Shown in pieces: positions 43,555 through 56,900 of a stretch of 64,000 bases of DNA. The notes under the pieces are model-generated. The model saw only the letters and a list, made by a program, of their open reading frames with translations. It had not been told where the DNA came from and did not search any database. The DNA lies in the NCBI GenBank assembly GCA_019310535.1, contig JAFDED010000005.1:1-64000 (forward strand), written 5' to 3'. The first letter of the stretch is position 1; each line of letters begins with the position of its first letter. The position numbers and the translations under genes are program-made. Source of the DNA: Deltaproteobacteria bacterium (lineage in GTDB: Bacteria > Desulfobacterota > JAFDED01).

Positions 43555-43778
43555 CCTCGGGCCGGGGGAGAGACCATTACGGGGCGCCGAAGGGGCAAGG
43601 AATATTGAAACTCTCAGGCAAAAGGACCCCGGTTCACTGATCTTCTGGAGAGTCCGGTATTTAAGGCGTAGTCCTGTGGAAGCAGGCCTTTTGCTGTGTA
43701 CGCCGGCACCGAAGGGGCAAACCCGCATCTACCGTGATGTATCGTGGGTGAATCTCTCAGGTAAAAGGACAGAAGAAG
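43555..43778 (+). ncRNA. Tandem glycine riboswitch (gcvT element)
   Basis: Two aptamer cores: gggagagacc...gcgccgaaggggcaa...aaactctcaggcaaaaggacccc and ctggagagtcc...gcaccgaaggggcaaacc...gaatctctcaggtaaaaggacag, directly upstream of gcvH. Confidence 0.95.
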
Positions 43779-43820
43779 GATGTTTGGCGGACATTCTTCT
43801 TCTGTCCTTTTATTTTTTTT
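43764..43820 (+). terminator. Intrinsic terminator of the riboswitch expression platform
   Basis: aaaggacagaagaaggatgt-ttggcgg-acattcttcttctgtcctttt + U-tract (20-bp stem, one G.U). Confidence 0.93.
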
Positions 43821-43841: not shown

Positions 43842-44228
43842 ATGAATTTCCCGGATGAACTTCGTTATGCAAAGACTCATGAATGGGCTCGAAAGGAAGG
43901 CGGCGAGGCTGTGGTGGGAATCACGGACTTCGCACAGGATGCGCTGGGAGATGTGGTTTTCGTTGATCTCCCTCAAGAAGGCGTCACGTTCAAGGCAGGA
44001 GACGTTTTCGGTTCCATAGAGTCTGTGAAAGCGGTATCGGAACTTTACGCCCCACTCAGCGGTGAAGTGGCGGCCATTAACAACGGTTTGGAAGAGCATC
44101 CTGAATGGGTCAACGATGATCCATACGGGCAGGGCTGGATGATTCGTCTCCGCCCTTCATCTCCGGATGAATGGGACCGGCTGGAAACTGCGGAATCTTA
44201 CAAGAAGGGCCTGGAGAGAGAGGAATAG
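43842..44228 (+). CDS. gcvH: Glycine cleavage system H protein
   Basis: YAKTHEWARKEGGEAVVGITDFAQDALGDVVFVDLP; lipoyl-Lys ESVKAVSEL; strong SD aaaggagg. Confidence 0.96.
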   Translation: MNFPDELRYAKTHEWARKEGGEAVVGITDFAQDALGDVVFVDLPQEGVTFKAGDVFGSIESVKAVSELYAPLSGEVAAINNGLEEHPEWVNDDPYGQGWMIRLRPSSPDEWDRLETAESYKKGLEREE

Positions 44229-44277: not shown

Positions 44278-45621
44278 ATGCCATACATTCCAGCCACTCA
44301 AGAGGAATTAACCGCTATGCTCAGGACAATGGGCATAGAGCGAGTGGATGAGCTCTTCGAGTCGGTGCCCCCTGAAATACGGTTGAAGGGACCGCTCAAC
44401 CTGCCGCCCTCCATGTCGGAACCCGACCTTATGGCCCATCTCCGGAAGCTGGCCGGGGAGAATGCCTCCTCCTGGCTTTCTTTTTTGGGTGGAGGAATCT
44501 ATCCCCACTACATTCCCGCAGTCGTGGATCATCTGGCGGGAAGGGCTGAGTTTGTTACCGCCTATACTCCATATCAGGCCGAAGCCAGCCAGGGAACGCT
44601 TCAGGCCATCTTCGAGTACCAAAGCCTGATCTGCATGCTCTCCGGGATGGATATTTCCAATGCCTCCATGTATGACGGTGCGTCCGCCCTGGCCGAGGCT
44701 GCCCTTATGGCCTGCAGAGCCAGCAGCAAGTGCAAACTGCTCATCAGCGCCGGCGTTCACCCCCAGTATCGGGCAGTGGTGCGAACTCTTGGGTCTGCCA
44801 TGGGAATGAGTCTGCTCGACATTCCTCTTGGCGAGAATGGACAGACCAGGAACCCCCGGGAGTTCCTGGATGGCGAAACAGCGGCCGTCCTTATCCAGAG
44901 CCCCAACTACTTCGGGTGCATCGAGGATTTGAAGACAGCGGCGGAATCGGCCCACAAAAAAGGGGCATTGCTGGTGGCATGTGCTACCGAGGCCTTGTCC
45001 TTGGGATTGCTCAAGCCCCCCGGCGCCCAGGGCGCGGACATCTTCGTGGCAGAAGGGCAGTCATTTGGTTTACCCCAATCGTTCGGTGGTCCCTTGCTGG
45101 GCATTCTGGCCGTTCGTCAGGAGCAGCTTCGCCGCATGCCGGGGCGGTTGGTGGGACAGACCGTTGACAGGCGGGGTAACACCGGCTACGTGTTGACACT
45201 GGCTGCCCGGGAGCAGCACATCAGGCGAGAGAAAGCAACTTCCAACATATGCACCAACGAATCGCTCATGGCCCTCAGAGCGGCCGTATACCTGTGCACC
45301 CTCGGCCCCCGCGGACTCCGGGAAGTGGCACGGCTTAACCTCCTCAAGGCGCGATACGCCCGGGAGCGCATCGCGTCTCTCCCCGGGTTCCGAATGGCCT
45401 TCTCCGCACCGGTGTTCAATGAGTTCACCGTCTATACACCCAGGCCTGCTGCGAAGATTCTCGAAGCCCTCCGTAGTCGTCGAATCCATGGAGGCATCGA
45501 TGTTTCCCGGCACATTCCCGGCGGAGGAGACACCCTTTTGATCTGTGTGACCGAAATGCACTCGAAGGAAGATATAGACAGCCTCTGCGCAGCCCTTGCC
45601 GATGGAGGACGAGAAGAATGA
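44278..45621 (+). CDS. gcvPA: Glycine dehydrogenase (decarboxylating) subunit 1
   Basis: MPYIPATQEELTAMLRTMGIERVDELFESVP; typical GcvPA. Confidence 0.95.
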   Translation: MPYIPATQEELTAMLRTMGIERVDELFESVPPEIRLKGPLNLPPSMSEPDLMAHLRKLAGENASSWLSFLGGGIYPHYIPAVVDHLAGRAEFVTAYTPYQAEASQGTLQAIFEYQSLICMLSGMDISNASMYDGASALAEAALMACRASSKCKLLISAGVHPQYRAVVRTLGSAMGMSLLDIPLGENGQTRNPREFLDGETAAVLIQSPNYFGCIEDLKTAAESAHKKGALLVACATEALSLGLLKPPGAQGADIFVAEGQSFGLPQSFGGPLLGILAVRQEQLRRMPGRLVGQTVDRRGNTGYVLTLAAREQHIRREKATSNICTNESLMALRAAVYLCTLGPRGLREVARLNLLKARYARERIASLPGFRMAFSAPVFNEFTVYTPRPAAKILEALRSRRIHGGIDVSRHIPGGGDTLLICVTEMHSKEDIDSLCAALADGGREE

Positions 45622-47126
45622 CCGATATGCACAATAGGGAACTCGGCCTGCAAATGGATGAGCCGCTGATTTTCAATCGGGGGGCGCCCGGACGCCGCGC
45701 CTTCATTCCGTCCCCTTGCGATGTGCCCGAGGTGGAGGCGGAGAAGCTCATCCCTCCTGATTTGATCAGGGAGGATGTGGATGGATTCCCCGAGGTCAGC
45801 CAGGTGGAACTGGTTCGCCACTTCACCCGGCTGTCTCAGTGGAACATGGGGATAGACACTGCCTTCTATCCGCTGGGCTCGTGTACTATGAAATACAACC
45901 CCAAGGTCAATGAGGAGGCCGCCGCCCTGCACGGGTTCTCGGAGCTTCACCCCTGTGTGGATCAACGGGATGCCCAGGGTATCCTGCGGTTGATGCTTGA
46001 GTTGGAGCGGTGCCTGTGCGAAATCAGCGGCATGTCGCGGGTAGCGCTCCAGCCCGCTGCGGGCGCACAGGGGGAGCTTACGGCAATGCTGATGATCCGC
46101 GCCTATCACGCAGGGCGCGGGGATACCCGACGGCGCGTGATCCTACCTGACTCCTCCCATGGGACCAATCCCGCATCCACGGCGCTTTGCGGCTATGAGG
46201 CGGAAACAATCCCCAGCGACCGGCGGGGGCTTGTGGACACCGCTGTCCTGCGAAAACGCCTTGGCCCCGATGTAGCGGCCCTCATGCTGACCAATCCTAA
46301 CACTCTGGGATTGTTCGAGCGGGACATCCTGGAGATAAACCGGCTTGCGCACGAAGCCGGGACCCTGGTTCACTGCGATGGGGCAAACCTCAACGCCATT
46401 GTCGGGGTCTGCCGTCCGGGAGACATGGGCTTCGACACCATCCAGTTCAACCCGCACAAAACCTTCTCTACGCCTCACGGTGGCGGGGGACCCGGTGCGG
46501 GCCCCACTGGAGTATCGGAAACGCTGGTTCCCTATCTGCCCGTTCCCACGGTTGAGATGGATGATGGCCAATTACGGCTCGAGTACAACCGGCCGCACAC
46601 CATAGGCCGTGTCCGCTCTTTCTACGGCAACGTCGGGGTGATGGTCAGGGCCTACGCGTACATCCTCGCTCTGGGATCCGAAGGTATCAGGCGAGTCGCC
46701 GAAGCAGCCGTGATCAACGCCAATTATCTGCTGCAGCGGCTTGAGGCCAAATATCCGCCGAAATACGGTAGGCCATGCATGCACGAGTTCGTACTGGATG
46801 ACAGCAAACTGGCCCCCTTCGGTGTATCCACCCTTGACGTGGCCAAGCGGCTCATCGACTATGGTTTTCACCCCCCCACCATATACTTCCCGCTCATCGT
46901 CAGTGGAGCCCTGATGGTTGAGCCGACGGAGACTGAGACGCGGGAAACACTGGATTCATTTGCGAAAGCCTTGGAGGCCATTGCGCAAGAGGCCCAGAAG
47001 GACCCGGAGATATTACATCAGGCCCCTCACTTAACCAGGCTGAGCCGCCTAGACGAGACCCGGGCCGCCCGCAAACCCATATTGCGTTGGACCCCCGGTT
47101 TGTCTCCCTCTGGTAACGATAAATGA
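45618..47126 (+). CDS. gcvPB: Glycine dehydrogenase (decarboxylating) subunit 2
   Basis: Start overlaps gcvPA stop; PLP motif NPHKTFSTPHGGGGPGAGP. Confidence 0.95.
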   Translation: MTDMHNRELGLQMDEPLIFNRGAPGRRAFIPSPCDVPEVEAEKLIPPDLIREDVDGFPEVSQVELVRHFTRLSQWNMGIDTAFYPLGSCTMKYNPKVNEEAAALHGFSELHPCVDQRDAQGILRLMLELERCLCEISGMSRVALQPAAGAQGELTAMLMIRAYHAGRGDTRRRVILPDSSHGTNPASTALCGYEAETIPSDRRGLVDTAVLRKRLGPDVAALMLTNPNTLGLFERDILEINRLAHEAGTLVHCDGANLNAIVGVCRPGDMGFDTIQFNPHKTFSTPHGGGGPGAGPTGVSETLVPYLPVPTVEMDDGQLRLEYNRPHTIGRVRSFYGNVGVMVRAYAYILALGSEGIRRVAEAAVINANYLLQRLEAKYPPKYGRPCMHEFVLDDSKLAPFGVSTLDVAKRLIDYGFHPPTIYFPLIVSGALMVEPTETETRETLDSFAKALEAIAQEAQKDPEILHQAPHLTRLSRLDETRAARKPILRWTPGLSPSGNDK

Positions 47127-47478: not shown

Positions 47479-47583
47479 TGATAAATAAAGGAAATTTACC
47501 GCAGAGATCACAGAGAAAGAAAACAAAAAATCTCTCTATATTTTCTCAGTATGCTCTGCGGTAAAAATAATAAGGAAGAGCCT

Positions 47584-48519
47584 ATGGAATGGATCTGTGT
47601 TGCTGCTCCGGCCAGCATCGGCAATGCCGGGCCGGGATATGATGCCCTGGGGGTGGCGGTCACCGGTCCCGGTGATCGGGTTTGGGCCCGCCGGGTCCCT
47701 CAGTCAGGCATTTTCATCAAAGAGATCCTGGGCTTCTCTCATGGAATTCCAATGGAACCGGGGTCAAACAGCGTGGGCATTGCCGCCAGAGGTGTCCTGG
47801 ACGCTCTGGGTGTGAAGGAAGGGCTGGAGCTGAGGATAAGCAAGGGGATCCCGCCGGCAAGCGGGTTGGGCAGCAGCGCCGCAAGTGCCTGCGCCGGTGC
47901 GTTTGCCGCCAACGCCGTTTTTGAATACCCCTTGCCCCGGGAGAAGCTGCTTCCTTTCTGTACAGAGTCTGAGCGAGCCACATCGGGAGACGCATACGCG
48001 GACAACGTGGCCGCCAGCCTCCTGGGAGGACTGGTGCTCATCCAGGGCACCGATCCCGTCGAGGCGATCTCACTGGGCGCTTTGGAAGGAGTATACTTCG
48101 TCGTCGCCACACCCAGGTTCACCCTGACCACCCGGGAAAGCCGGGGGGTGGTGCCCAAGGACATTCCCATAAAGGCCGCTGTGGCAAATATGTCGGCCGT
48201 AGCCTCTGTGGTGGCAGGCCTGTTAACTAAGGACGTCAAATTGTTCGGTAGGGGGATTCAGGACCATCTGGTTGAGCCGTTCCGAAGTCCGCTTATTCCC
48301 GGTTTCCATGAGATAAAGGCTGCCGCCCTCGATGCAGGAGCCCTGGGATGCGCTATATCCGGATCCGGCCCCAGTATATTCGCTGTTACCGGGAGCGATG
48401 ATGTCGCCCGTGTTGTGGGAGAACGGATGCGTGCAGGCTTCATGGAACATGGGCTTGAATCCGAAATCCGCCTCGCCGTCATGGATGTTCAAGGAACGAA
48501 AATAGTGTCGCCGGAATGA
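47584..48519 (+). CDS. thrB: Homoserine kinase
   Basis: VAAPASIGNAGPGYDALGVAV...GIPPASGLGSSAASACAGA GHMP kinase motif. Confidence 0.88.
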   Translation: MEWICVAAPASIGNAGPGYDALGVAVTGPGDRVWARRVPQSGIFIKEILGFSHGIPMEPGSNSVGIAARGVLDALGVKEGLELRISKGIPPASGLGSSAASACAGAFAANAVFEYPLPREKLLPFCTESERATSGDAYADNVAASLLGGLVLIQGTDPVEAISLGALEGVYFVVATPRFTLTTRESRGVVPKDIPIKAAVANMSAVASVVAGLLTKDVKLFGRGIQDHLVEPFRSPLIPGFHEIKAAALDAGALGCAISGSGPSIFAVTGSDDVARVVGERMRAGFMEHGLESEIRLAVMDVQGTKIVSPE

Positions 48520-48598: not shown

Positions 48599-51500
48599 AT
48601 GAGTGCAAGAAAACAGACAGGAAAAAAGGATTTAAACAAGATGGAACCGACTGCGGGGCCGATTCTCAAGCACACAGATCCCTTTGTTGCCCGGCTTGTG
48701 CAGATGGAGGAGGAGCGCCAGGAAGAAAAAATAATCCTGATACCATCGGAGAGCTATTGTCCTCAGCCGGTGCGGGAGGCACTGGCCACCGGCTTTGGCA
48801 ATCTCTATGCGGAAGGTCATCCCCCGCCGCGGATGCTTAACGAGGAGCGGGACAGATTGGAAGACGTTGAGCGCCAGAGGGCTTTGATCCGGCGCTATGC
48901 CAACCGTCGATACTACAAGGGCTGCGAGTTCGCTGATATAGTGGAGGCGCTGGCCTGCAAGAGGGTGTGCAGGCTGTTTGCCACACGCACTCATCCTCCA
49001 GAGACCATCCATGCCAACGTGCAGCCCCTTTCCGGCGCGGCGGCCAACAACGCCGTGTACGAGGCATTTATGCGCCCCGGGGACACTCTCCTGGGGCTGC
49101 GTCTGAGTATGGGAGGGCATCTCACTCACGGAAGTCCCCAGAACCGGTCAGGGCGGCATTATCGAGTTGTTTCCTACGAAGTTGACCCGAACACAAGCCA
49201 GTTGGACTACGATGGCATCGAGCGCATGGCCCGCGAATACCTTCCGAGAATTATTGTAGCAGGCTTCAGCGCTTTCCCTTGGGCCGTGGACTGGCGCCGG
49301 TTGCGCCGCATCGCCGACAATATCCCCGATTGCCTGATACTGGCAGACGTAGCCCACACCGCCGGACTTATCGTGGCGGGCGTCTATCCCAACCCCATCG
49401 ATTTCGCCCACGCGGTCTCCTTCACCACTCACAAGACGATGTGCGGTCCCAGGGGCGCCGTGATTCTCACCACCGACCCGGCCATGGCAAGAGAGGTGGA
49501 CGATGCCGTGTTTCCCGGTGAGCAGGGGGGCCCCCACTTCCATTCCATCGCGGCCAAAGCGGTGGCCTTCCAACTGGCCTCCATGCCCGAGTTCCGGGCC
49601 CTCCAGAGCCGGACAGTCGAGAACGCCAAGAGCCTGGCTGCGTCGATGGAGCAGAGAGGCCTCAATATCGCTTACGGCGGTACTAACTCGCACCTGCTGC
49701 TGGTAGACCTGCGAAAGATGAAAACCCCCACCGGGGAGAGGCTCTCCGGCGAGATCGCCTCCCGCATTCTCGAACTGGCCGGACTGGTGGTCAATAAAAA
49801 CCCCATTTGGGATGACGAAGATGCGGCTCACCCGAGCGCCGTAAGATTGGGAACCACATGGGCGAGCCAGCGCGGCATGGGCCCGGAAGAAATGGATGTC
49901 ATCGCGGAGGTCATCCATGACATTCTGACGCACATCCACCCGTTTCATTATATAACCTCCGACTGTATTGTGGGGCGCGGCAAAATAGATCACCGCGTGC
50001 TGAGACGGTGTCAGGAGCGCGTGGGATCCCTGGTGAAGCCTCAACCTGCCCCATCAGTGAAGACCGGCGGCGAGCAGGAAGGGCCCGCATGGATATCCAT
50101 CCGGGGGGATGAGGAGCGAGTCCGCACGTTCCTCCATGAGGCCTTTACGGCGGACCTTTACGGCATAAAGCCGGGAGAGGTCCGTCCATCACTGATCCTG
50201 GACAGCGAGGGAAAGGTGCTGGATCGGGTTGTGACCGGTGGTGTGGAAGGCAGGAACGGCGAACTTAACGTGTTGTTGGCGACATCTCCTGCTCGAAGGG
50301 ATCATATCGTTGCATGGCTTGAGAGCCTTTCAGATGGATATGCGCTCTTCAACAAGAACGATGTGCTGGCTAAAGTACATGGTCCGGTAATGGTGAAGCC
50401 GCTTCCTTCGGGGATGCAAGGGCCGCCGGCGATGGCCAATGCCTGGGCGAAGGACCCCCCGCAGCAAGCGGCTGCGATCGAGGAACTGGCACGAGAGGAG
50501 CCCGGTCTTGTCGCCTATAAGAAAGCGTTCTTTGTGGGGAAAGAATCGCTGAATGCCCCGGCCCGGCAGGAAATGAAGCCGTTTCGTTTCCGCCCCCCGG
50601 AAGGGCCTCTCAAGCGCACGTGCCTGTATGATGAGCATGTACGGGTAGTCGCCCCCAACTATATAATTCCCTTCGCGGGCTGGGAGATGCCGGTTCGCTA
50701 CGGCCTGATTGCACAGGAACACAGGGCGGTTCGGGAGTGTGCCGGGCTCTTCGACGTGGCCCACATGGGGATACTGGAGGTGAGCGGGCCGTTCGCCGGG
50801 AGGTTCCTGGATCTATCTACCACCAACTCCATCATCAACCTGATCCCCGGGAGGGCCATGTATGGTTATATTTTGGACGGTGATGGAGAGGTCGTGGACG
50901 ACACCATGATCTACCGGGCGGAGCGGGACCGCTTCATGATGGTGGTCAACGCCGTTAACACCGACCGAGTGATCGCCTGGCTTACTTATCTCAACGACGG
51001 CGGCCTGCTGCCCGGCCCGGACGGCCCTGCGACGCTGGAAGGGAAGGCAACCATTAGGAACCTGAAGGATCCCTCCGCGGGCGATGATCAGCGAATCGAC
51101 ATGGCCCTCCAGGGGCCGAGGTCCATGGATATCCTGACCCGGGTCCTGCGCTTCAAGGCGGACCACGCGCGCCTGGAGCAGTTGCTTCACAATGACTTCA
51201 TCGACCTGGAGCTTGCGGGTGCGCCAGCCCGTGTGTCGCGAACTGGCTATACCGGGGCCGAGATGGGCTTCGAGATTTACATCCACCCCCAGGCGGCGCC
51301 GTTGTTGTGGCGCCAGTTACTGGATGCAGGGAAGCCCCTGGGTCTGGTGCCCTGTGGGCTGGGCGCGAGGGATTCCCTGCGCACCGAGGCCGGGCTGCCC
51401 CTCCACGGCCATGAGCTGGCAGGGGAGCATCACATCTCTCCCATAGAGGCGGGCTACGCGGCTTTCGTAAAGATGCACAAGCCCTTCTTCGTGGGCCGGG

Positions 51501-51874
51501 AGGTCATGCGGCGCCACCTCGTGAAGCCTGAGCGCGGCGTTGTGCGGTTCCAGGTGATAACCCGTTCCCCCCGGATGCTCAACCCCGGCGATCCCGTGGT
51601 GGACCGCCAGGGGGCGTTTGTAGGACGCGTGACCAGTGCGGCCATGGCCGGCGACAGGCTGGTGGGGATGGCACTGGTTAAGCACGCATACACCAGGCCT
51701 GGGACGCGCCTGAGCATCTTCCCTGTCCGGGGCAAGATACCGGAGGGAGTGGAGCCGCTGGAGAACATCGTAGCCCGAGGCCGTGCCGCCATCCCTGTGG
51801 AGGCGGAGGTGTTGCTGAGGTTCATGACGCCGCCCGAGATAAGCCAGGCCGCGGAGCGTGTCTCCGCCGGGTAA
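48599..51874 (+). CDS. Fused serine hydroxymethyltransferase - (degenerate GcvT-like segment) - aminomethyltransferase
   Basis: SHMT half: IILIPSESYC, RYYKGCEFADIVE, SFTTHKTMCGPRGA; C-terminal GcvT: IPFAGWEMPVRYG, DGEVVDDTMIYR, GLGARDSLRTEAGLPLHGHEL. Confidence 0.93.
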   Translation: MSARKQTGKKDLNKMEPTAGPILKHTDPFVARLVQMEEERQEEKIILIPSESYCPQPVREALATGFGNLYAEGHPPPRMLNEERDRLEDVERQRALIRRYANRRYYKGCEFADIVEALACKRVCRLFATRTHPPETIHANVQPLSGAAANNAVYEAFMRPGDTLLGLRLSMGGHLTHGSPQNRSGRHYRVVSYEVDPNTSQLDYDGIERMAREYLPRIIVAGFSAFPWAVDWRRLRRIADNIPDCLILADVAHTAGLIVAGVYPNPIDFAHAVSFTTHKTMCGPRGAVILTTDPAMAREVDDAVFPGEQGGPHFHSIAAKAVAFQLASMPEFRALQSRTVENAKSLAASMEQRGLNIAYGGTNSHLLLVDLRKMKTPTGERLSGEIASRILELAGLVVNKNPIWDDEDAAHPSAVRLGTTWASQRGMGPEEMDVIAEVIHDILTHIHPFHYITSDCIVGRGKIDHRVLRRCQERVGSLVKPQPAPSVKTGGEQEGPAWISIRGDEERVRTFLHEAFTADLYGIKPGEVRPSLILDSEGKVLDRVVTGGVEGRNGELNVLLATSPARRDHIVAWLESLSDGYALFNKNDVLAKVHGPVMVKPLPSGMQGPPAMANAWAKDPPQQAAAIEELAREEPGLVAYKKAFFVGKESLNAPARQEMKPFRFRPPEGPLKRTCLYDEHVRVVAPNYIIPFAGWEMPVRYGLIAQEHRAVRECAGLFDVAHMGILEVSGPFAGRFLDLSTTNSIINLIPGRAMYGYILDGDGEVVDDTMIYRAERDRFMMVVNAVNTDRVIAWLTYLNDGGLLPGPDGPATLEGKATIRNLKDPSAGDDQRIDMALQGPRSMDILTRVLRFKADHARLEQLLHNDFIDLELAGAPARVSRTGYTGAEMGFEIYIHPQAAPLLWRQLLDAGKPLGLVPCGLGARDSLRTEAGLPLHGHELAGEHHISPIEAGYAAFVKMHKPFFVGREVMRRHLVKPERGVVRFQVITRSPRMLNPGDPVVDRQGAFVGRVTSAAMAGDRLVGMALVKHAYTRPGTRLSIFPVRGKIPEGVEPLENIVARGRAAIPVEAEVLLRFMTPPEISQAAERVSAG

Positions 51875-52057
51875 GACATACCACGGATTCACGAATATGT
51901 GTGTTAATATTTCAGGAACAAGCGGTTTTATTCCTTGACATTTTTTCACAAAAAGTTAATATGGGATTCATGATCGATACGTGTATATTATATTGAAAAG
52001 TTTTGATTTTTTTAACCCGAAGCCCTTTCACAAAGGGGAACCGGGATGACGTCAAAG

Positions 52058-52110
52058 ACAAAACGAGACCCCATTTTTTCTGGCAGCGAGAAGATGGGGC
52101 CTTGTTTTGT
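52058..52110. other. Large imperfect stem-loop (17-bp arms, 3 mismatches)
   Basis: acaaaacgagaccccat ... atggggccttgttttgt. Confidence 0.6.
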
Positions 52111-52153
52111 GGAATGTAAAATAATCGATAATCTCAAAAAATGATTTTGAAAT

Positions 52154-53185
52154 TTGAAAATGGGCGTCAAAATGAAAATAAATCGTGTTTCAAAGTTTAA
52201 AATATTTTTAATGGTTTTACTTTTAATATTAATTAATTTACAAAATTCTTGGGGGACACTGCTAAGATTGGGACACACTTATCCGAAAGATTATCCAACT
52301 TATAATAGCGCCTTCAAATATGCAGAAATGATTAAAAAAGAAACAAATGGCAAATATGAAATTAAATTATATCCAGGTGGTCAATTGGGTTCTGGACGGA
52401 CATTGGTAAAGTCAGTCAGATCAGGCATAATAGAGATGTGTATTGTCTCTTCTTCAACAGCAGAATATTTTTTAAAAGAATTAGCATTATTGAAACTTCC
52501 TTTTATATTTAAAAACTATAAGCATGTTGATAGTATTTTAGATGGTGATATAGGATTATCTTTACTAAATCTTTTTAAAAATCAAAACATTAAAGGTTTA
52601 ACATTTTTGGAACAAGGTTTTTTACAAATAAGTAATGCTAAAAGGGCAATTAAAAATGTTAATGATCTTAAAGGATTGACGATAAGAGTTTATCCTTCAA
52701 AAATCCAAGAGGATACATTTAGAATTTTAGGCGCAAGTCCTGTTATTATGCCCTTTGCAGAAGTTTACACAGCTTTGCAACAAGGTGTGGTTGACGGTGA
52801 TATCGTAACAATAAATTCATTTAAAAACCGTAAGTTTTATGAGGTTCAGAAATATTTGTCCCTTACAAAGCATTCTTACAGAGCGGATATTCTTTTATTT
52901 AATAACGATATTTTTAATAAATTATCAAATGATTATCAGGTAATTTTTCAAAAAGTTGCAAAAGAAATATCTATTTATCAGCGAGACTTTGTTAGAGAAA
53001 AAGAAAGAAAAACAATAAAGAGTTTGAAAAAATTAGGTATTATGATTATTGAACCTGATCGAGAGGCAATGAAGAAAATGGTTGAGCCGATTTATAATAG
53101 ATACCCAATGTTGTATGAAAGCATCCGGGATTATTGGGACTGTGAAAATAAATGTCCACTTCCACCAATTTGTTGCTATAATTAA
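52154..53185 (+). CDS. TRAP transporter substrate-binding protein (DctP-like)
   Basis: LRLGHTYPKDYPTYNSAFKYAEMIKKETNGKYEIKLYPGGQLGSGRTLVKSVRSG...GLTIRVYPSKIQEDTFRILGASPVIMPFAEVYTALQQGVVDG. Confidence 0.88.
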   Translation: MKMGVKMKINRVSKFKIFLMVLLLILINLQNSWGTLLRLGHTYPKDYPTYNSAFKYAEMIKKETNGKYEIKLYPGGQLGSGRTLVKSVRSGIIEMCIVSSSTAEYFLKELALLKLPFIFKNYKHVDSILDGDIGLSLLNLFKNQNIKGLTFLEQGFLQISNAKRAIKNVNDLKGLTIRVYPSKIQEDTFRILGASPVIMPFAEVYTALQQGVVDGDIVTINSFKNRKFYEVQKYLSLTKHSYRADILLFNNDIFNKLSNDYQVIFQKVAKEISIYQRDFVREKERKTIKSLKKLGIMIIEPDREAMKKMVEPIYNRYPMLYESIRDYWDCENKCPLPPICCYN

Positions 53186-53197
53186 GGGGAACTATCA

Positions 53198-53764
53198 ATG
53201 AAGAGTTTATTTTTAATATTTATTGTCTTGATTTTATCTATGTATTTGGTGTTAAATTTATCATTTAGTCAAGAAATCATGCCAAAACCATCTATAAGTG
53301 CTAAGAGGGATTCCTGTAAGACTTTTATTGACTTTACCTTAATGTTAACTACACTTTCTTTAGGTGTCTTTGTGTTAATTCCCACAGCCTTAGGATTGAT
53401 TAGATACAGAATTGCCGGAATAAAAAAACCATTATTGTTTTGTGGACTTTTTTTTCTAATACTTTCTATTGTGATCGGAACTATTGTGATAGCTTCTTTG
53501 GCTGGCACACAGAGAATGGGCGAATATGATATTAATAATCCAATTACTAAATTGGCTTCAAAGATTCAATGGGGTTTATCAATTTTAGGAATAATAGCAA
53601 TTAGTTTTATCTTAATGTTTAGCATATTTCAACAAAAAGAAAGAGATGCAAATGAACTTAATATTCTTCGCGCTAAAGCAATAATTAAGCTTTCAGAATT
53701 TTATAATGAAAAGTCACAACCTGATAAAGCTATTGCTGTATTAGAAAGATTGGTTGAAGATTAA
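53198..53764 (+). CDS. Hypothetical membrane protein with TPR-like C-terminus
   Basis: Several TM helices then RAKAIIKLSEFYNEKSQPDKAIAVLERLVED. Confidence 0.6.
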   Translation: MKSLFLIFIVLILSMYLVLNLSFSQEIMPKPSISAKRDSCKTFIDFTLMLTTLSLGVFVLIPTALGLIRYRIAGIKKPLLFCGLFFLILSIVIGTIVIASLAGTQRMGEYDINNPITKLASKIQWGLSILGIIAISFILMFSIFQQKERDANELNILRAKAIIKLSEFYNEKSQPDKAIAVLERLVED

Positions 53765-53784
53765 TGGAATTTGATAATATTAAT

Positions 53785-53941
53785 TAGTGTTCATCCGGAA
53801 ATCCTACTTTTTCTCTTTTCATGTGAGAAGAGGAAGGTTTTTTATAATACAACTTGCTGATATTATAAGCCATCTTATTCATATTCAAATTTTTAATATA
53901 AGGATTGAGAATAAATTTTTATAATTTCCGGATGGACACTA
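53785..53941. mobile_element. MITE-like element with 18-bp terminal inverted repeats
   Basis: tagtgttcatccggaaat ... atttccggatggacacta, 157 bp end to end, AT-rich interior without ORF. Confidence 0.65.
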
Positions 53942-53987
53942 GATAGATTAGCGGGCAATTATCGTGCGCTCCTCATGGAGGCGGCTA

Positions 53988-56900
53988 ATGAAGATTTTTC
54001 GTCTGTTCCCGGTTTCTTTCATCCTTTTGATACTTGCTCTTTTCGCGATGACGGGCCCTGCCCGGGCGCAGGCCCTTGACGTATCGCTGACCATTGCTGA
54101 AGACGCCGGGTATGCCCGGATGGATGAACCGGTGACCAGCGGTGTGCCACTGCCGCGTTCAGCAGGAATCACCTCTACTTCCTCCCTGCGACTGGTGGAC
54201 GAATCGGGCGACACGGTTCCAGCGGCCTTCATGGTCCTGGGCCGCTGGGGCGGAACGCCCAGGGATACCTCCAGACCCATTCGGTGGGTGCTGATAGATA
54301 CCAATGTATCCGTCCCGGCGTACGGGAGCGTGACCTTACGCCTGCGCAACGACGGCGCTGGCAGCGCCGTCTCTTCCCTTTCGTTGGCGGAGGATACGCC
54401 GGAGCACGTGGTCGTCGACACGGGAGCCGCCCGCTTTCGGGTGGGGAAGACGGCGTTCCGAATCTTCGACTCGGTGACCGTGGGAGGGGTTGAAATTCTT
54501 TCTCCCTCCGGCTCCGGTGGAATTGTAGCCGCACGCAGCGGAGAAATATACAGCTCTCAGAACGACACCCCCATCAGCGTGACCGTCGAGCAGCAGACAA
54601 CCCGTCGTCTGCTCCTCAAGGTCATGGGATCTCTGCGAAACGCCGCCGGCACGGCGCTCCTGGAGTACACAGCCCGGCTGGAGTTCTTCGCAGGCAAGGC
54701 CGTGGTCAGGGCTTACGTGACCATCGAGAACAATAACCCGCCGGAGGTGGGCGAGTGGGGTGATCTTATACTGGATACCGACTACCAGCCGATAGTCTGC
54801 CAGATAGGTTCCCCGAACAGCGTGAGCCTTTCTGGCATATCCCTGAACCTGCCCCTGGCGTCCGCATCGACCTTCCTCACCGAGAGCGGAAACTCGGGCA
54901 ACCTGGAGGAACCGGTCTTGCTCTATCAGGATTCCAGCGGAACTGATTACTGGAACAACTACGGGCCTGAATCTGCACCCCGGCTCCAGAGCGCATGCAC
55001 GTTCCGGGGCTGGCGGTTGACACAGGGCAGCGAGACCCTGTCCAGCGGCGATCAGTCGCTGGGCTGGATGGAGGTCAGCGGAGGGCAGGGGGGGCTTCTG
55101 ACGGCGGTGCGCGACTTCTGGCAGAACTTCCCCAAGGCCCTGCGGGCGGATTCTTCAGGCATGGTGCGGGTAGGGTTGTTCCCCGATGAGTTCAGTGCTG
55201 ACTTCAACCTGCGCCCGGGAGAGCGCAAGACCCACGAAGTTCTGCTGGCGTTCCATGCCGGAAGCCTGGACGCCGCCGAGGCCGAGGCGGCCGCTGGTGC
55301 GTTCAACGCTCCCCTGTTCATGGCGGCCACGCCCACATGGTACGCAGACAGCAAGGTCTTCGGCGACGTGGGATTTCGCGACCCATCCCGCTGGCCCATC
55401 TATGAGACATATGCCGACAGCGTTCTTTACCCGGCCCCTGATCCCGACCCATACACGGGCCGCAGCACAACCCTGCTGGAGCGCATCGAGGAGTTCAACT
55501 TTTACGGCTGGCAGGACTTCGGGGATGCTCCGGTGGACTACGAGCCCACCGAGGAATTTCGAAGAGCAGGCCACTTCAACCTGAAATACCAGTTCAGCTA
55601 CGGCATGTGGCTGCAGTTCATCCGGTCCGGGGATCTGGCATGGGTGCGGCTGGCCGAGCGAGCGAACAAGCATCTGGCCGACATCGACATATTCCACATA
55701 CCAAGAAGCGGAAGATCGCACTGGATGCAGGGAGGCTACTTTGGGCATTCCTATCACGATGAGCCAGGTAATCTGAACCCGAACCGCAATTACGGAATCA
55801 CCACCTTTGATCTCTGCTACGGCGTGCCTGGGATGATGGCCCTTTACTACCTGCGCGGATACCCCCAGATGCTGGAGGCTTCCCTGGAGGTAGTGGACTA
55901 TCAAATGAACATATGGCAGCTTTTCCCTGAAGAGGGGGAGCAGCGAAAGCGGGGAGCCCAAAGCTACTTGTGGCATCTGGCTGAAGCGTACCGTGCCACG
56001 GGTGATTCACGGTATCTCACAGAACTCAACGACTTTGTTGCCCTGGGGCACCCATCCAACTACGGGTGGGTAGCTGACCCACGCGGCTATACCCCCCTGG
56101 ACCCCGAGGACAGCTATTTCCGCACCTGGATGCTCAGCCTCTATTTGTTCGGCGTGGGGAAGTACCTGGATCTGCTGGAGGAGTTCGGACAACCCGACAC
56201 ATTGAACTGGCGCCAGGGACTGAAGGATTACGCGGATTTTCTTTTACGATGGGTCAAGCAGGAGTACGAGGGGGGTCGAAAGGCGGTATTTCCTTACGAT
56301 TACTATTTTGACGGCGTGATCGCGGACGCGGATGGAAATCCCTTTGTGGGAGACTGCATGGATTATGACCCCGGCAATCCTGTCTGCCGGGAGACGTATC
56401 CTGCCTACACCTGGTGTTTGGTGGCGGCCGATGTTTTCGCCTATACGTACAAGTACACGGGGGAGGAGCGCTACCTGAATGAGGCGCGAAAGTTCTTCCT
56501 GGCTGGCACCGAGGACCACTATTATCTGGACTCTGTTCCTACTTATTACTATTCCAAGGAAGCGGCCAATATCATCAACAACGGCCCCTTCTATCAGTTT
56601 CACGCTGGAGGGGGAGTTTCACAGCAAACCCCGTCCCTTGCCCTCTTGTTCATACCCACTGAAGCGCGGCGGGGGGAATCGGTCAGCCTGTACATCTCTT
56701 TAGTTAGTCCTTTTGAATGGGTGTATTTGGATTTTTATCTTGTAATGCAAAGCCCCAATGAGGAATACTTCAGTTACACCGCGGACGGATGGATGCCCGG
56801 GATCATTCCCGCCTTTAGTGCCGTGCCTATCGGGGGTGCTAGTGTGCTCAGAAATACTCCGGTGATCTCAGGCACTCTCCCATGGGCAGATCCACCCGTC

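Follow-up and report, generated by a model that had tools for sequence, protein, structure and literature searches.

Within the stretch of DNA which we analysed, 64,000 nucleotides of the Deltaproteobacteria bacterium contig JAFDED010000005.1 (hereafter the window), a single intact reading frame of 1091 amino acids starting with ATG joins a serine hydroxymethyltransferase (SHMT), a degenerate GcvT-like module and an aminomethyltransferase (GcvT) in one chain. From sequence and structural modelling we consider it probable (about 0.8) that this protein is a bifunctional enzyme which would interconvert two molecules of glycine and serine plus CO2 and NH3 by means of a shared folate. A Shine-Dalgarno-like sequence close upstream of the ATG, AAGGGAGA, constitutes a plausible ribosome-binding site. 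In a Pfam scan the protein matches SHMT (PF00464) with 370.9 bits (cut-off 27) and GCV_T (PF01571) with 247.4 bits over two stretches (cut-off 25.6), while GCV_T_C (PF08669) scores 24.0 bits, just below its cut-off of 25.9. The GcvT equivalog TIGR00528 is matched with 241.2 bits, above the cut-off of 235.85; the NCBIfam scan of the window protein named the separate enzymes and returned no model for the fusion. The AlphaFold2 model of the full-length chain reaches a pLDDT of 87.4 and a pTM of 0.86. The initial annotation had described an uninterrupted SHMT-GcvT frame of this length with an intact PLP Lys motif and a full-length-looking aminomethyltransferase; the fusion and its intact active sites are confirmed by the open reading frame and its Pfam matches and by the active-site residues conserved in 58 aligned sequences. 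Its reading as a fusion of two enzymes holds for the fusion as such but is incomplete, as it overlooks a third module, derived from GcvT, which separates the two enzymes, as well as an insert of about 26 residues in SHMT; a simple two-domain fusion is thus rejected on the grounds of Pfam, profile and fold matches. The features concerned are compiled in Table 1.

Table 1. Position of the fusion gene, its modules and the neighbouring features in the window.
Feature	Position	Strand	Basis
SHMT / pseudo-GcvT / GcvT fusion gene	48599..51874	+	1091-aa ORF, Pfam, AlphaFold2 model
SHMT module, aa ~22-482	48662..50044	+	Pfam 370.9 bits, fold, active-site residues; PLP Lys279 at 49433-49435
Family-specific SHMT insert, aa ~76-101	48824..48901	+	within the YAEG...RYYKG folate-binding loop
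Middle module, aa 494-664, shortened degenerate GcvT-like	50078..50590	+	profile and fold matches to 1yx2
GcvT module, aa 669-1045	50603..51733	+	GCV_T 230 bits; catalytic-type Asp768 at 50900-50902
Tandem glycine riboswitch	43555..43782	+	two RF00504 aptamers, 43555-43639 and 43640-43782
Terminator-like hairpin and T-run right after the riboswitch	43764..43810	+	20-pair stem, then TATTTTTTTT
gcvH	43842..44228	+	ORF, internal Met chosen as start; homologues adjoin fusions
gcvPA (GDC-P N-terminal subunit)	44278..45621	+	GDC-P 417 bits at 44284-45594
gcvPB (GDC-P C-terminal subunit)	45618..47126	+	ORF; weak in-frame GDC-P match
Homoserine-kinase-like (ThrB/GHMP) gene	47584..48519	+	ORF 47551-48519; name read from sequence

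The predicted fold of the SHMT module closely resembles that of 1yjs (Z 53.7, rmsd 1.3 over 404 residues), and PF00464 is matched by all 43 fusion members scanned. Lys279, Asp250, His253, His177, Tyr70, Glu72, Tyr106 and Arg416 are invariant in the 58 aligned sequences; exceptions concern His278, which is Gln in four of them, and Ser145, which is Ala in one, while Tyr105 is replaced by Phe in 38. In G. stearothermophilus numbering, the SHMT of the window possesses Tyr51, Glu53, Tyr61, His122, Asp197, His200, Lys226 and Arg357. Compared with SHMT (GlyA) of, for instance, G. stearothermophilus, it shares the whole fold and all catalytic residues checked and would probably carry out serine-glycine hydroxymethyl transfer; it differs by the insert in the folate-binding loop and by the partner fused to its C-terminus. 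In virtually all fusions, and in their split versions, the stretch from YAEG to R[YF]Y spans 37 residues, in contrast to 10 to 12 residues in canonical SHMT; the loop concerned (YAEG to R[YF]YKG) carries, in SHMT, Glu and Tyr residues which contact folate. Two sequences for which automatic counting gave odd spans (L052 and L080) carry the same insert, the counts being artefacts of the regular expression. The fusion SHMTs form a clade of their own, which excludes the seven stand-alone SHMTs sampled. 4-Fluorothreonine transaldolase (TIGR04506) consists of an SHMT-like domain followed by a further C-terminal domain, which we take not to be GcvT; the fusion protein scores 86.6 bits against this model, far below the equivalog cut-off of 650.

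The GcvT module matches B. subtilis GcvT (PDB 1yx2) with an E-value of 3.1e-59. Its Asp768, which aligns with the catalytic Asp96 of T. maritima GcvT, is present in 58 of 58 sequences and belongs to a set of invariant residues further comprising Asp767, Asn784, Tyr884, Arg924 and Glu930. With GcvT of B. subtilis (1yx2) and T. maritima (1woo) the module has in common the full folate-binding domain, the catalytic-type Asp and the signature motifs, whereas it sits behind SHMT and a degenerate GcvT-like module and possesses a C-terminal extension; its GCV_T_C match is weak. The C-terminal barrel domain (PF08669) is matched at an E-value of 0.001 or better by 19 of the 43 fusion members. A precedent for the fusion of a GcvT-type folate domain to the enzyme supplying its C1 unit exists in the alpha subunit of sarcosine oxidase and in dimethylglycine oxidase; there, however, the partner is a flavin/amine dehydrogenase rather than SHMT, and a pseudo-GcvT module is absent. 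We would like to note that the window protein carries Ala887 within its TGYTGE motif, a position occupied by Glu in 57 of the 58 aligned rows; as Ala887 is directly followed by Glu, the Glu site of the motif may be shifted by one.

GcvT makes and SHMT uses the same labile folate intermediate, 5,10-methylene-tetrahydrofolate (methylene-THF), and the steps catalysed by both enzymes are all reversible. In the proposed mechanism the GcvT module would convert the aminomethyl group bound to the H-protein to methylene-THF, tetrahydrofolate would shuttle the methylene group between the two active sites on the same chain, and the SHMT module would add it to glycine to give serine, with GcvH, GcvPA/PB and lipoamide dehydrogenase acting as partners. 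Running forward, the enzyme would serve the breakdown or recycling of glycine; in reverse it would form glycine and serine from C1 units. Since the active sites are strictly constrained and often irreplaceable, we judge both activities to be real, and conservation across phyla, the constrained active sites and the location in a gcv locus preceded by a glycine riboswitch make a coupling of the half-reactions a reasonable assumption. Against the bifunctional reading stand the mostly distant position of the gcv genes, the split genes of Chloroflexota, four genomes negative for GDC-P and Ala887 of the window protein.

The putative dead-GcvT spacer, in a fixed arrangement and together with the conserved insert in the folate loop of SHMT, invites the hypothesis of channelling. 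In this reading, which we hold to be rather less likely than not, the two elements would hand methylene-THF directly from one active site to the other, which would amount to a captive folate in a widespread enzyme. Alternatively, both activities may be real while the fusion secures 1:1 expression and co-localisation, methylene-THF equilibrating with the bulk pool. To this explanation we assign somewhat less than an even chance: fusions often encode stoichiometry only, and several Chloroflexota have the chain split into genes of an operon, yet the ordered architecture, whose middle module and constant-length insert at the folate-binding loop are kept across phyla, goes beyond what simple co-expression would need. 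In the split versions, found in a minority of Chloroflexota (L102, L104 and L105), SHMT-plus-middle and GcvT are encoded by adjacent separate genes with the split point just after the middle module, from which it follows that covalent linkage is dispensable there. These loci are natural controls for the contribution of the linkage, and the natural fusion offers a single-chain system in which direct transfer of methylene-THF between enzymes can be measured.

The earliest hint of the third module was a weak second GCV_T stretch at 50117-50344. A profile built from 32 middle-module members retrieves B. subtilis GcvT (1yx2) from the PDB with an E-value of 3.5e-11. As the PDB matches listed for the model of the whole fusion are SHMT entries only, which speaks neither for nor against the remaining modules, the middle module was folded alone; the resulting model (pLDDT 91.2) has as its 32 best PDB matches exclusively members of the GcvT superfamily, the best being 1yx2_B (Z 15.8, rmsd 2.4 over 136 residues). 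It aligns across residues 50-279 of GcvT, which implies a gap of about 90 residues at the second subdomain, and this subdomain is deleted in most members. In the alignment of 58 sequences the position of the catalytic Asp (543) is occupied by Glu, Asp, Arg or Ala depending on the member, and neither the TGYTGE nor the GLGARD motif is present in the middle modules aligned. A second functional T-protein is rejected on account of these losses. Most likely, the pseudo-GcvT module is a structural spacer which would fix both active sites relative to each other. A more active role, in which it still binds folate or docks the H-protein and so passes the cofactor between the two active sites, strikes us as rather unlikely. 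The GcvT fold is indeed kept, Asp588, Lys592, Gly595, Pro596, Lys642 and Phe645 are conserved, and the module is longer, in several lineages nearly full length, in Thermoplasmatota, Methanomassiliicoccales, Poribacteria and Myxococcota, with GCV_T scores of up to 127.7 bits (G412); the loss of the catalytic Asp, of both motifs and, in most members, of the second subdomain speaks against it.

The initial annotation had further stated that the window contains no stand-alone gcvT, and had called for a search of the whole genome for separate glyA and gcvT genes. The source genome is a draft of 4.8 Mb in 191 contigs, 95% complete with an estimated contamination of 5.9%, and within this assembly PF01571 has no match outside the fusion frame, so that the absence of gcvT extends from the window to the genome and is not a matter of the window merely missing the gene. 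A second PF00464 protein is encoded on contig C168 by a stand-alone frame of 424 residues (L013:2492-3739). It keeps the PLP lysine and lacks three active-site tyrosines (Y51L/Y60L/Y61C in G. stearothermophilus numbering), which renders a role as normal housekeeping SHMT doubtful; it probably catalyses a different PLP reaction. The tetranucleotide usage of C168 matches that of the window, hence a contaminant is unlikely. Its SHMT-like gene is bordered on either side by a carbon-nitrogen-hydrolase-like gene, the two resembling each other, and an alanine-racemase-like gene is located nearby. Within 95% completeness, the fusion thus appears to be the only T-protein of the source genome and its only SHMT with a canonical active site.

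Of 32 distinct genomes with the fusion, 18 encode no other PF00464 protein, 26 no other PF01571 protein, and 16 no further member of either family; these counts leave out weak matches below cut-off and halves of fusions at contig ends. In G278 and G400 the GcvT pieces found separately are contig-end halves of this kind and were rejected as stand-alone genes. Most fusion genomes are drafts, single absences being soft and the pattern across many genomes firm. As the fusion is often both sole SHMT and sole GcvT, both halves should be functional. GDC-P is found in 29 of 33 fusion genomes and was not detected in the other four, possibly due to genome incompleteness. The presence of formate-THF ligase (FTHFS) in 17 of 22 fusion genomes is consistent with a folate-based C1 metabolism. 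It is improbable that one module has been repurposed, the GcvT half acting on another N-methyl donor or the SHMT half being another beta-hydroxy-amino-acid aldolase. The GcvT relatives within sarcosine oxidase, DMGDH and TMAO demethylase do act in this way and all of them match weakly, and the four sampled genomes without detectable GDC-P would fit; however, many genomes encode no SHMT or GcvT other than the fusion, and the residues which form the active sites of the two canonical enzymes do not vary. Several Chloroflexota hold two fusions, L118, L119 and L120 being second, paralogous copies.

The SHMT / pseudo-GcvT / GcvT chain occurs in about ten phyla, in hundreds of bacteria and some archaea. 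Hosts are Chloroflexota, Bipolaricaulota, Planctomycetota, Poribacteria, Myxococcota, Spirochaetota, Thermodesulfobacteriota, Atribacterota, Thermoplasmatota and another euryarchaeote. When genomes were sampled by phylum, fusion-type SHMT, mostly in frames of more than 1000 residues, was encoded in 68 of the 100 from Bipolaricaulota, in 76 of the 400 from Chloroflexota and in 6 of the 395 from Desulfobacterota. Scanning about 85,000 species genomes with the N-terminal segment of SHMT yielded 313 loci, the best 80 of which were used; 64 of these 80 have a near-complete GcvT in the same frame, while the remaining 16 are nearly all truncated at the end of a contig, one consisting of two overlapping frames, and a clearly intact stand-alone SHMT of the fusion type was not seen among the best 80 of 313. 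With the middle module as query, two other genomes of the source phylum yielded frames of 1085 and 1178 residues, both collinear with the window protein and located downstream of gcvH-gcvPA-gcvPB. That the fusion is an assembly chimera or an annotation artefact has a negligible probability: the source genome is a draft of many contigs with some estimated contamination, but collinear homologues occur by the dozen in independent genomes, some on Mb-sized contigs, and include ones of about 46-49% identity, one of them on a contig of 3.3 Mb, for which reason the assembly error considered in the initial annotation is excluded.

In trees of the SHMT and of the GcvT module the fusions are separated from the stand-alone sequences sampled (SH-aLRT 100 and 99). 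L116, seemingly a stand-alone sequence inside the GcvT clade, belongs to a second fusion which is cut at the end of a contig. The topology is consistent with one fusion event, in trees with few outgroup rows and long-branch warnings. The best trees nest the split genes of Chloroflexota among the fusions, which disfavours them as the ancestral state and favours their origin by fission of fusions; the alternative order of split and fusion is not rejected by the AU test (p 0.33-0.34). The window protein groups apart from the other Desulfobacterota fusions, which suggests, with weak support, a separate acquisition.

As to whether the architecture is a common annotated one, it is common in sequence data, yet neither an NCBIfam model nor a paper was found, the search of the open literature (5.4 million papers), Bipolaricaulota included, having returned no account of an SHMT-GcvT fusion. 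Databases such as InterPro very likely contain proteins of this kind. The enzymes as such are known, and the novelty lies in a widespread architecture which joins them to a degenerate third module; it will concern specialists of folate and C1 metabolism above all. For annotation it matters that fusion genomes can appear to miss gcvT or glyA. Moreover, the reverse glycine cleavage system and SHMT form the core of the reductive glycine pathway, so SHMT-GcvT fusions are candidate parts for the engineering of C1 assimilation.

Upstream of the fusion the window harbours gcvH, gcvPA and gcvPB, with the tandem glycine riboswitch ahead of gcvH. The two aptamers score 60.1 and 56.8 bits in Rfam (gathering score 32), and the terminator-like hairpin which follows is likely the expression platform. 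Glycine riboswitches ahead of gcv operons usually turn expression on; the riboswitch therefore suggests an operon induced by glycine and, in the source organism, a preference for glycine use. Between gcvPB and the fusion lies the ThrB-like gene, preceded by some 450 bp, an arrangement with which a single gcv-fusion transcript is plausible; the ThrB-like gene itself may be co-transcribed with its neighbours. In L015 a glycine riboswitch is situated directly 5' of the fusion, followed by gcvH, gcvPA and gcvPB, and gcvH homologues lie beside the fusions in L011, L012, L015, L079 and L084, while at most other loci the fusion is located away from the gcv genes. In G020 a selenocysteine tRNA (L012:10397-10489) was observed close to the fusion locus. 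Immediately downstream of the window's own fusion gene, the G+C content drops abruptly to 30% at 52000-53999, compared to 60% in the neighbouring regions. This segment, likely a foreign insertion, encodes a solute-binding protein of the TRAP type and a small membrane protein.
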